Shown one piece after another: positions 28,136 to 38,718 of a stretch of 64,000 bases of DNA. The stretch's first letter is position 1. Every line of letters begins with the position of its first letter. The stretch lies in assembly GCA_937922785.1 (NCBI GenBank), contig CALAJQ010000009.1:136958-200957 (forward strand). Direction: 5' to 3'. Source of the stretch: an uncultured Acidimicrobiales bacterium (lineage in GTDB: Bacteria; Actinomycetota; Acidimicrobiia; Acidimicrobiales; SZUA-35). The position numbers and the translations under genes are program-made. The notes under the pieces were generated by a model. That model was not told the DNA's origin and searched no databases. It saw only the letters and a program-made list of their open reading frames with translations.

Positions 28136-29766
28136 CGTTTGGCTCGAATGTCTAACGGGCGTGAAGTCTGTGAGTAGAAGTCGTTGCCTTTGTCATCGGT
28201 CACGATGAAAGCCGGGAAGTCCTCAACCTCAATCTTCCAAACGGCCTCCATGCCAAGTTCTGGGTATTCCAGAACCTCGACCGACCGAATCGAATCCTTA
28301 GCTAGCCGGGCTGCGGGCCCGCCAATCGAACCGAGGTAAAAGCCGCCATGGCGGTTGCACGCATCCACGACCTGTTGGCTGCGGTTGCCCTTTGCCAGCA
28401 TCACCATCGAACCACCGGCGGCCTGGAACTCATCCACATAGGAATCCATGCGCCCAGCCGTGGTCGGGCCAAACGAACCTGACGCATAACCTTCGGGAGT
28501 CTTGGCCGGACCGGCGTAATAGATGGGATGGTCCTTGAGATATTGCGGCATCGGTTCGCCTGCCTGAAGCCGCTCACGAATCTTTGCGTGAGCGATGTCG
28601 CGCCCTACGACCAACGTGCCGGTGAGAGACAGCCGAGTCTTGATCGGGTGTTTGGTTAACTCAGCCCGAATGTCTTCCATAGGCTGATCAAGGTTGATCG
28701 GTATGACCTCACCGGATAGGTCTTGAGTTTCTACGGCGGGGAGGTAGCTGGCTGGATCGGGCTCTAGGTGTTCCAGAAAGACGCCGTCGGCATTGATCTT
28801 GGCCAGGGCTTGTCGATCGGCAGAGCAACTAACCGCCAAACCAACCGGAAGTGATGCGCCATGGCGGGGGAGTCGGATTACGCGGACGTCGTGGCAAAAA
28901 TACTTGCCGCCGAACTGGGCGCCGATTCCGAACTCTTGGGTCAGCTTTAGAACTTCGGCTTCCATATCAAGGTCACGGAAACCATGTCCTGACTCCGAAC
29001 CCGAGGTGGGCAGCGAATCGAGGTAGCGGGTCGAGGCGAGCTTCGCGGTTTCAACTGCGAACTCCGCAGACGTTCCGCCGATAACCAGGCCCAGGTGGTA
29101 CGGCGGGCAGGCCGAGGTGCCGATTAGGCGAAGCTTCTCGTCAAGGAACTTGCGAAGTCCCGTTGGGTTCAGGATGGCCTTGGTCTCCTGGAACAGATAG
29201 CTCTTGTTGGCCGAGCCGCCGCCCTTGGTCATAAACATGAACTTGTACTCGCTGCCTTGGGTTGCCTCAAGCTTGATTTCACCCGGCAGATTCGTGCCCG
29301 TGTTCTTCTCTTCCCACATAGTGAGCGGGGCCATTTGCGAGTAGCGCAAGTTTGAGTTTTGAAAGGTCTCTCCAGCGCCGGCGGCAAGCGGCTCACGATC
29401 ATCGCCGTCGGTCAGCACGTATTGGCCCTTCTTGCCTTTGATGATGATCGTGCCAGTGTCTTGGCATCCGGGCAGGATGAACCCAGATGCAATGTTTGCG
29501 TTAAGCAAAAGCTCGGTTGCCACAAAGCGATCGTTCGCTGACGATTCTGGATCGTCGATGATCTTGGTGAGCTGCTTGAGATGGCTGGGCCGTAGAAGAT
29601 GACTGATGTTGCGAATTGCCGTTGCGCTTAAAAGCTTGATTGCTTCGTCGCTGACCTTTAGGAACTGTTTGCCTCCGAGGTCAACGGTTTCCACGCCGTC
29701 GGTGGTGAGCAGGTCATACTCAGTTTCGTCAGGACCGAGGGGGAGAATGTCTTGGAATGATGCCAC
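28132..29766 (-). CDS. fumA: Class I fumarate hydratase (iron-sulfur, FumA/B type)
   Basis: Reversible fumarate + water <-> malate in the TCA cycle, single-chain class I enzyme of about 544 residues. The three cluster Cys are in [20 protein letters not shown] and AVSCSADRQ. The C-terminal beta domain has [27 protein letters not shown] and [15 protein letters not shown]. The computed frame runs to a GTG at 29817, which would overlap the divergent regulator; the GTG at 29766 gives the family-like start ([19 protein letters not shown]) and has a TATATT box 8 bases ahead. The oxygen-labile cluster is noteworthy next to a Ni-SOD-bearing aerobe. Confidence 0.92.
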
Positions 29767-36699: not shown

Positions 36700-36747
36700 T
36701 TCTGTCATAGATCTATCGGTCTATAGCCCGATAGATCTATGACAGAA
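36700..36747. terminator. 48-bp perfect hairpin, copy 1 (bidirectional terminator-like repeat)
   Basis: The arms 36700-36719 and 36728-36747 are exact reverse complements (20 bp, TTCTGTCATAGATCTATCGG) around the loop TCTATAGC. The whole 48-base element, loop included, recurs at 54068-54115. It lies between the convergent aldehyde dehydrogenase and selenoprotein genes, so it probably stops transcription from both sides. Each arm carries its own inner palindrome ATAGATCTAT. Confidence 0.85.
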
Positions 36748-36775: not shown

Positions 36776-37291
36776 TTAGTTGCCCGTTAGCTTGGCGATT
36801 AGTTGGTCGACAGCCTTGTCGGCGATTTCGGCCATTTCGGCATCTGTTCTGTCTTGAATCGGATGCTCCACAAACAGCCGTTCAGGTTGGAACCCGAGCG
36901 CCTCACCCTGAATTTGGGCGGCATCGACAAACACTTCGGATGCAACAAAGACACCGGGAACTCCCCGGCGTTCGAGATCGGCGATGTCATGCACACTGCA
37001 TGACGTGCAGCTGCCTCAATCGGCTAATGCTTCGATCACCGCATCACAGCTCGTCGCAATCTCGTGCCGCAGATCAACCGGCGCAGGTTTGGCAAAGGTG
37101 GGCTTGGTGAAGCGTTTGATACTTGCACCTTCTGCGGTCAGGCGAGTTTCGAGTTGATCAAGGAACTCGGCACCTCGGGCCTTGGAAATATCCAACAGCC
37201 CTATCGTCAGACCAGAGATTGAAGTTGGCCGGGCCACGGTCTCGATGGCCTCGGTCTTAGTACCCATTGTTGGGTCTAACAGAACTGTCAC
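36776..37291 (-). CDS. UGSC-family selenoprotein (Sec at codon 92)
   Basis: Read as one gene through an in-frame TGA at 37016-37018: 91 codons, TGA, then 79 codons to the stop at 36776. The residues around it are AD-U-GSCTSC-SVHDIADLERRG, exactly the U-G-S-C motif that names the UGSC (seleno)protein family, with extra Cys95 and Cys98. Both halves are in the same frame and both continue the fold (SISGLTIGLLDISKARG before; VPGVFVASEVFVDAAQ after), arguing against a pseudogene. A SECIS-like hairpin lies 11 bases after the TGA. The GTG start overlaps the upstream gene's TGA (GTGA). Redox function is inferred; the substrate is unknown. A Cys-free stop at TGA would give a useless 91-residue stub. 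Confidence 0.88.
36986..37004 (-). promoter_or_regulatory. Putative bacterial SECIS stem-loop
   Basis: In mRNA sense: GUCAUGC-AGUGU-GCAUGAC, a perfect 7-bp stem with a 5-base loop that has G and U residues. It begins 11 bases after the UGA at 37018-37016. Spacing and size agree with the minimal SelB-binding upper stem-loop known from E. coli fdhF. Confidence 0.78.
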
Positions 37292-38718
37292 GGGGTTATC
37301 TCCTTCGTTACTAGCTCGCTACCTTTTGCTCCGCCAACCCATCCGGTCAGCAAAGACGAGAACAGCCCTGCGGGACCGCCTACGTGAATAATATTCATGC
37401 CGCCAGCCCGATACTTGGGCAGCTGTGAACCAGCGAAAGCTTCGGGGAGGCCTTCGGTGATTCCACCGACGCCTCGGATCAGTTCGTCTGAGTCCAACAA
37501 CAGCAGCTGGTCAAGCTCGGCGGCCAGCCTTGCCTTGTCCCAACCGGCCTCAGCAAAGATCCGGCCGTGTTCCATTCCAACCGCCAACATTGCGTCAAAG
37601 CCGATAACCAACTTGTGGTGGCCGGCAGCCTTCAGCGCCCCCGCAAACGATTTCGCAAGGGACTCTGGATCTCGCGAGAGCTGGTCGATAATTGGTGACG
37701 GGCCTTGCCCCGCAAATAGCGTTACAGCGTTTACGCCTTCGGCTAGGCCCCTAGTTGTGGCAAGCGCCTCGAATGGTGAGTCGTCAGTGTTTTCGGCAAA
37801 GCAGAATCCAACCTTGCCCGGCGAACCTTGCATTGACATGTCCACTTGGCCCGGTCGGCCTCCGCCGACGTTGCGAACAATCAACTGAAGCGCACGACCG
37901 ATCGTGGCGTTCGCTCGGTTGCCCTGGCCGAAGGCGTTTCCGCCCGAGTTCATGCCAATTGCTTTGGCGATGGGTCCGTTGACAATGATGATTGGGCCCG
38001 AGAAATATGTGGTTGCCAACAAGCCGTGCATATTGAATTCATCAGAACAAGCTGCCTCCACTGCGGCCAACAGAACCGGCATGTACTCGGGTTTGCAGCC
38101 TGCCATGACCGCATTGATGGCGACGTGTTCGACAGTTAGTGGAGCCAAATCAGGGGGCACGTCACACACGAAGTCACCGGGGTTACGGCTGGTGCCGTCC
38201 AACATGTTGAGCACTCGTGCCTCAGTTGGTGGCACGACCGGCAACCCATCGGACCAACCCCGGTCAAAGGCGGCCTCGATTGGATCTTCCAAAGTTGCAA
38301 GATCCACCCGGCGGGCCTGAAGCGGCACTGAAGAGAACCGGACGCGAAGCTCGTTTGCGATTGCCGGGTCCACACTTAGCGAGCCGCAGCCGGGTCGCAT
38401 CTCGGGAAGTTCGGCCCCGATGTCAGAGACTCCAGAAACCGAGCGCCATCCGTCACGGCTCCAACCGACTGTCCGTTCGACCTCAACACCGTCTGCGACT
38501 CGGATGAGAGTGGGCACAGTTTCGATGTCGTTGTGAAACGAAATATCTAGGTTTGTGTCGTCAACTACAGCCATCCCAGCTGGGAAGTCCGGATCGTCCT
38601 GGGTGTAGATAGTAAGGGGGCTTCCAGACTCTCTGATCTGGGCTAGCGCCGGCACTACCAGCTCACATGTCGGGCAGTCATGTTTGACAACTGCGACTAT
38701 TCCATCGGGCAAGCTCAT
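37288..38718 (-). CDS. Thioredoxin-domain protein partnered with the UGSC selenoprotein
   Basis: 476 residues, no signal peptide. Residues about 1-95 look thioredoxin-like: KHDCPTCELVVPAL holds a CxxC (Cys15, Cys18), and ETVPTLIRV has the cis-Pro. A short linker has a further Cys (RPGCGSLSV). The main domain (about 130-476) is glycine-rich and I cannot name it: SDGLPVVPPTEARVLNMLDGT, AVMAGCKPEYMPVLLAAVEAA, FSGPIIIVNGPIAKAIGMNSGGNAFG, GGRPGQVDMSMQGSPGKVGFCFAEN. Its stop overlaps the selenoprotein start by 4 bases, so they are made together; it may reduce or hold the selenoprotein (inference). TAATGT stands 6 bases before the ATG. Confidence 0.75.
   Translation of the reverse strand: MSLPDGIVAVVKHDCPTCELVVPALAQIRESGSPLTIYTQDDPDFPAGMAVVDDTNLDISFHNDIETVPTLIRVADGVEVERTVGWSRDGWRSVSGVSDIGAELPEMRPGCGSLSVDPAIANELRVRFSSVPLQARRVDLATLEDPIEAAFDRGWSDGLPVVPPTEARVLNMLDGTSRNPGDFVCDVPPDLAPLTVEHVAINAVMAGCKPEYMPVLLAAVEAACSDEFNMHGLLATTYFSGPIIIVNGPIAKAIGMNSGGNAFGQGNRANATIGRALQLIVRNVGGGRPGQVDMSMQGSPGKVGFCFAENTDDSPFEALATTRGLAEGVNAVTLFAGQGPSPIIDQLSRDPESLAKSFAGALKAAGHHKLVIGFDAMLAVGMEHGRIFAEAGWDKARLAAELDQLLLLDSDELIRGVGGITEGLPEAFAGSQLPKYRAGGMNIIHVGGPAGLFSSLLTGWVGGAKGSELVTKEITP

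Follow-up and report, generated by a model that had tools for sequence, protein, structure and literature searches.

A UGSC-family selenoprotein gene of an uncultured Acidimicrobiales bacterium and its overlapping thioredoxin-domain partner

The UGSC gene and the gene that overlaps it

The window, the whole stretch of 64,000 nucleotides analyzed here, originates from an uncultured Acidimicrobiales bacterium and carries on its minus strand two overlapping genes (Table 1). Direct reading of the downstream gene gives a GTG start at 37291–37289, TGA at 37018–37016, and a final TAA stop that ends at 36776. In the preliminary description of this DNA, the region was taken for a single gene (37291–36776) divided only by that TGA, with the residues U-G-S-C-T-S-C around it; the first point is confirmed base by base and the second by translation. 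With TGA translated as U, the product comprises 171 residues, ...IEALAD-U-GSCTSCSVHD..., and UGA is codon 92. The assignment to the UGSC family, originally made from the motif, is borne out by two curated profiles, Pfam PF24696 (146.1 bits against a cut-off of 25, residues 4–169) and NCBIfam NF041046 (148.7 bits against 125, residues 27–169). Both cut-offs are passed, and both matches cover the two sides of the UGA and run unbroken across it. A UGSC-containing protein was part of the GOS selenoproteome of 2008, and the family has been in print since then (PMC2398784). To go by the portion of that paper used here, the window protein shares with the published family its membership, the Sec motif, and the kind of SECIS position, and does not itself differ from it; the additions are the overlapping Trx/Unknown_1 partner, the co-occurrence of the two genes, and the Sec forms of the partner.

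Table 1. Features of the UGSC locus, in window coordinates
Feature	Coordinates	Strand	Details
Partner gene	37288..38718	(-)	476 aa: thioredoxin-like domain, RPGCGS linker, C-terminal domain without Pfam/NCBIfam model
Partner thioredoxin-like domain	38428..38718	(-)	residues 1-97, C-P-T-C; Z 9.4, rmsd 2.1, 83 aligned
Partner linker Cys111 of RPGCGS	38386..38388	(-)	codon is UGA in 13/120 relatives
Partner Cys208 (AGC)	38095..38097	(-)	invariant in 61 aligned sequences
UGSC family selenoprotein gene	36776..37291	(-)	171 aa, Sec at residue 92, GTG start
UGA read as selenocysteine	37016..37018	(-)	U of U-G-S-C-T-S-C
SECIS hairpin	36986..37004	(-)	7-bp stem 37004-36998 / 36992-36986, loop AGUGU 36997-36993, 11 nt past UGA

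The partner gene, an addition to the preliminary description, lies upstream, and its stop overlaps the start of the UGSC gene in the four letters GTGA (37288–37291). Its C-terminal domain contains an invariant Gly207-Cys208 pair and gives nothing over cut-off in Pfam or NCBIfam. In most loci compared the partner adjoins UGSC; in distant UGSC groups it is found without the thioredoxin domain or downstream of UGSC. Because thioredoxins fill the list of solved structures matching the partner, the C-terminal domain was barely probed in this way, and sequence searches against solved structures brought no convincing match for UGSC or for the partner. A relationship of the partner to class I fumarases was considered and rejected, since the Foldseek matches are weak (E roughly 4e-3 to 1e-2, with a probability near 0.4–0.7 and a TM near 0.2) and the hhalign match extends over 17 columns only (E 0.14). 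A relationship to GrdB was rejected as well, the two being unrelated by profile comparison. Elsewhere in the window, at 28801–29625 on the minus strand, PF05681 identifies a class I fumarase domain with 245 bits.

A UGSC/Unknown_1 fusion selenoprotein was published in the 2008 GOS paper (PMC2398784); as described in the part of it drawn on here, UGSC and a second domain form one chain. The genome of the window contains a comparable fusion on contig C14, a second UGSC copy (L018, G000:C14:43951-44478) that also has a UGA and shares one reading frame with a fused partner-like domain, which is 29% identical to the window partner. In the window, in contrast to the GOS fusion, the genes are separate and overlapping, the partner comes first, and it has an extra thioredoxin domain. 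We infer that the partner domain is the 'Unknown_1' of that paper.

The UGSC gene converges with an aldehyde dehydrogenase gene, and between the two lies a 24-nt inverted repeat (36700–36747, 96% complementary, no spacer), possibly a two-way terminator. Rfam at its gathering threshold has no matches in the window, and ARAGORN finds no tRNA there.

Reading of UGA 92 as selenocysteine

Since UGA is a standard stop codon, the gene might be a pseudogene or might truly end at codon 92. The frame beyond the UGA is, however, intact and conserved in relatives, and the copies listed have, by a wide margin, mostly UGA at this codon. All 64 aligned UGSC relatives have U or C at the first motif position; on a quick tree of these 64 proteins the 30-row clade holding the window is entirely of the Sec type, and the 14 Cys copies need three changes. 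Decay of the 3' half was looked for in the nearest relatives among the aligned UGSC loci, two members of the same family that are 72–76% identical (L066 and L067), and both keep the UGA together with an intact 3' half. A stop codon or pseudogene is rejected on these grounds, namely that relatives retain UGA and an intact, conserved frame past it. As regards UGA being read as Trp by a changed code, codon 92 is Cys, UGA, or UAG in relatives, and the genome has a tRNA-Sec.

The hairpin that the preliminary description placed past the UGA is present just as described there, with the stem sequence GUCAUGC/GCAUGAC, and its role as a SECIS is upheld by covariation among the Sec copies of relatives. 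On its own, the hairpin of the window is ordinary, which would be compatible with a true stop: in dinucleotide shuffles of a 45-nt stretch its z is −0.09, with 86 of 200 shuffles folding at least as well, and synonymous recoding gives p = 0.106. Its significance comes from the comparison with relatives only. Among 50 distinct Sec copies, 94.9% of stem cells are paired, two-sided changes occur in five of the seven pairs (18 cells), and none of 500 shuffles reaches any of five measures, whereas the same columns in the 14 Cys copies, taken as a control, are at chance (58.2% paired, 139 of 500 shuffles). Covariation confined to Sec copies is not expected of a pseudogene or a true end. In recoding, p falls below 0.05 in 18 of 51 Sec copies as opposed to one of 14 Cys copies. 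The Ser codon at the loop is AGT in 46/46 Sec copies and 1/13 Cys copies, as counted among the 50 Sec and 14 Cys copies, with the window left out. The stem of the window includes one compensated change, from G-C to A-U, and in 71 named copies all seven pairs are formed in 53, six in 17, and five in one. A crude criterion, the presence of some stem of at least 6 bp, does not part Sec copies (49/51) from Cys copies (9/14). In two loci with the motif A-Y-G-H-U-G-S-C (L068 and L082), the UGA is kept and the usual SECIS hairpin is absent; their SECIS, if any, would be of another form.

All parts of the Sec machinery searched for in the host genome (45 contigs totaling 4.9 Mb, 95.7% complete) were found. 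A tRNA-Sec with anticodon TCA (UCA) is on contig C45 (66.7 bits, cut-off 47), selA lies directly before selB on contig C21 (SelA 385.1 bits against 267.9, SelB 296.3 against 242.25), and SelD (368.1 bits against 125) has one UGA of its own. With a threshold of our choice (E<1e-10), tRNA-Sec is detected in 95 of the 102 genomes for which a TGA copy of UGSC is listed and in one (G087) of the seven genomes whose listed UGSC copies have no stop (Fisher 5.6e-6); the remaining seven UGA genomes, which show no strong tRNA-Sec, are a point against Sec decoding, as is G087. This comparison takes in the 109 of the 138 UGSC genomes that have a listed row; in both G023 and G218 a single copy lies outside it.

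At the 71 of 80 named partner loci in which the UGSC match spans the motif, the codon is TGA in 69, TAG in two, and Cys in none. Both TAG copies belong to Geodermatophilaceae (Blastococcus, L108, and Geodermatophilus, L144), and the best tRNA-Sec of each of these genomes has the anticodon CTA (CUA); the two score 65.1 and 64.2 bits with the Rfam tRNA-Sec model. ARAGORN labels these CUA tRNAs (L231 and L232) tRNA-Pyl, whereas Rfam identifies them as tRNA-Sec, a trap for annotation. The codon swap with tRNA-Sec(CUA) in Geodermatophilaceae, UGSC included, is already published (PMC5330540). The same UGSC gene appears in the part of that paper relied on here, its UAG matched by tRNA-Sec(CUA), whereas the window has the ordinary UGA and tRNA-Sec(UCA). 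In our view, the swap is the strongest natural evidence that tRNA-Sec reads this codon.

The joint change of codon and anticodon and the full Sec machinery of the genome also argue against a pseudogene or a true end at the UGA, which we consider extremely improbable. Almost certainly, UGA 92 is decoded as selenocysteine and the window gene is a real selenoprotein gene; it is an ordinary new member of the known UGSC family.

The pair in other genomes and selenocysteine in the partner

Reports of selenoproteins from actinobacteria of this kind had been described as rare, which may hold for papers but does not hold for genomes: among 395 genomes of the class to which the window belongs, UGSC is present in 138. 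The partner is present in 139; 132 genomes have both genes, six UGSC only, seven the partner only, and 250 neither, i.e., both occur in 132 of the 145 genomes with either. In turn, the set of named partner loci, which may overlap with the genomes of the class survey, comprises 80 loci kept of 560 found. By record title, 34 are from Actinomycetota, 32 from Pseudomonadota, five from Myxococcota, three each from Acidobacteriota and Chloroflexota, two from phyla seen once, and one has no phylum; the loci nearest to the window, those of uncultured Acidimicrobiales, point to Acidimicrobiia as the class surveyed. A stop-containing UGSC lies at most 3 kb from the partner in 69 of the 80 and two are ambiguous, while at nine there is no UGSC in the stretch of sequence examined, some of these stretches ending near the partner. 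The partner tree of the 80 loci needs seven phylum changes where the minimum possible is six, which leaves little sign of transfer between phyla; a claim that the pair is a mobile cassette was dropped for this reason, and the linkage was kept.

Clustering of the reading frames in 120 neighborhoods (L055–L174) yields mostly lineage-specific neighbors and spurious frames and no clue to the substrate. The sole functional recurrence is selA, which adjoins the UGSC–partner pair in 11 of the 120 loci (L098, L110, L111, L124, L126, L127, L134, L146, L155, L158, and L172) and is accompanied by selB in 10. In the four of these that were scanned (L098, L124, L126, and L155), tRNA-Sec is also found beside the pair. 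This adjacency is seen in Actinomycetota and Pseudomonadota and needs five changes on the partner tree.

The co-occurrence of the two genes, their overlap, and the UGSC–partner fusion in the same genome make it very likely that the two proteins function together. The wider reading, in which UGA 92 is Sec, the hairpin is its SECIS, the gene is half of a two-gene unit, and the two proteins form one enzyme, whatever its exact chemistry, is probable.

The partner itself appears in a Sec form. In 13 of the 120 copies that span the linker, a set assembled apart from 11 loci that were read again, either from longer stretches or from the window, a stop replaces the Cys of RPGCGS (L070, L094, L149, L164, L166, L167, and L218–L224), and in all 13 it is TGA; Cys occupies this position in 104 of the remaining 107. 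The alignment of the partner runs on past the UGA in the Sec-type copies. A stem 12 nt past the UGA forms eight of eight pairs in seven of the 13, seven pairs in four, and five in two from Betaproteobacteria, and the same stem has eight pairs in one and seven pairs in nine of the 107 others. Pro-Gly is encoded at the loop in 13/13 UGA partners and in 34/107 others, and the mean folding energies are −12.7 and −8.1 kcal/mol, respectively. The class survey contains at least nine full-length partners with a single TGA, those listed all belonging to the same family (f13). On the tree of named loci, four Sec partners, two from Acidimicrobiaceae and two from Betaproteobacteria, need two changes.

These in-frame UGAs might instead be assembly errors or true stops. 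They are confined to 13 of 120 copies, 11 of them from the class of the window or from loci named Acidimicrobiaceae, and the stem is imperfect in six of the 13, all of which would suit such an explanation. Yet every one of the 13 stops is TGA and falls on the same conserved Cys, the loop and the folding energy set these copies apart from the others, and they occupy two positions on the tree, in Acidimicrobiia and in Betaproteobacteria; we therefore regard errors or true stops as unlikely. The partner with UGA is, judging by these sequences, apparently a further selenoprotein that has not been listed. In the portion available, a review from 2026 (PMC13188914) has UGSC in its Table 1 and no entry there with the partner architecture, and 'PGUGS' was not found in the main texts of the literature searched. 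For two UGA partners, no NCBIfam model matched over its cut-off. The partner with UGA would represent a further selenoprotein family, and a standard gene caller would cut it at residue 110.

Resemblance to GrdB and PrdB and a possible mechanism

The predicted structure of UGSC (pLDDT 95.1) consists of five β-α units, which make up a five-strand α/β domain in which a helix begins at Sec. A search with this fold returns generic α/β matches only, and the solved neighbors listed are not thioredoxins. As modeled, UGSC is not evidently thioredoxin-like, unlike the thioredoxin-like fold assigned to it in the sections of the literature used here.

In sequence, UGSC resembles another group of selenoproteins. 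It shares with glycine/sarcosine/betaine reductase protein B (GrdB; TIGR01917, PF07355) and with PrdB of D-proline reductase (TIGR04483) a UxxCxxC-type Sec motif and similar surrounding sequence, and differs from them in being one short domain, far under the family cut-offs. The GrdB model TIGR01917 matches 47 of 64 UGSC proteins at E<=1 (best 1.2e-6). Profile comparisons of UGSC with GrdB and PrdB place Sec over Sec at E 6e-5 and 1.8e-4, as opposed to 0.81 for an unrelated control, these E-values being those of a single comparison and the corresponding hhalign probabilities being only 65% and 48%. The window protein fails the TIGR01917 cut-off (18.6 bits against 602.2), and PF07355 is not among the best 25 families listed for UGSC proteins; UGSC is below the GrdB and PrdB family cut-offs and is consequently not filed there. 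As to the pyruvoyl-type companion subunit of those reductases, the UGSC partner scores over the cut-off of no Pfam family.

An additional observation concerns the GrdB- and PrdB-like genes of the class themselves. In all 20 GRDB-model loci examined of 30 fetched (L175–L192, L195, and L196), the first stop past the model end is TGA at the matching place, and the genome of the window has its own PrdB-like gene with a UGA (L189). As this TGA directly follows the end of PF07355, these genes look like further selenoproteins, at which the model stops short.

The likeness of UGSC to the Sec region of GrdB and PrdB leads us to propose a two-part reductive bond-cleaving enzyme, which UGSC and its partner would make up together. 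The proposal draws on the chemistry of GrdB and PrdB. The selenolate of Sec92 would attack a substrate that the C-terminal domain of the partner holds or activates, a C–N or other C–heteroatom bond would be cleaved reductively, and Cys95 would resolve the selenium adduct as a Se–S bond, which the partner's own thioredoxin domain would re-reduce through the linker Cys or Sec of RPG[C/U]GS. The attack and resolution steps are suggested by analogy with GrdB and PrdB, whose chemistry was in part taken from the portion of a review section used here (PMC13188914), and the re-reduction step by the anatomy of the partner and the Cys/Sec exchange in its linker. The chance that the chemistry is GrdB-like is slightly less than even.

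A different function could be assigned to the same parts, with UGSC acting as a generic selenol/thiol-disulfide oxidoreductase that uses the thioredoxin-bearing partner as its reductant and cleaves no bond. Such a function would fit the UxxC motif and the thioredoxin domain next door, and is in the spirit of the published view of a thioredoxin-like fold, in the form that the sections used here give it. It fits less well with the five β-α units of the predicted structure and its best solved neighbors, which are not thioredoxins, with the resemblance of the UGSC sequence to GrdB and PrdB, and with the large domain, containing invariant residues, that accompanies UGSC in the loci compared. We see it as a serious possibility, if somewhat short of an even one.

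Returning to bond cleavage, the observations can be joined, tentatively, into a single picture that is possible yet rather doubtful in its entirety. UGSC and its Trx/Unknown_1 partner would be the two subunits of an undescribed Se-dependent reductase present in at least five phyla, in which a domain of a new kind holds the substrate, a selenolate of the GrdB/PrdB type cleaves it, and a built-in thioredoxin recharges the selenolate. The partner would be a second selenoprotein (PGUGS), not previously listed, that gained Sec at least two times, and in some lineages the pair, selA/selB, and tRNA-Sec would constitute one cluster uniting the enzyme with selenium decoding.

The UGSC family itself is common in the class, and what makes the locus interesting is the partner, along with the mechanism suggested by the pair. 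Given a constant partner with a thioredoxin domain, sometimes with Sec, and the likeness to GrdB and PrdB, a 'redox protein of unknown function' becomes the subject of a testable hypothesis of reductive bond cleavage, one that would take this chemistry outside the clostridial amino-acid reductases.
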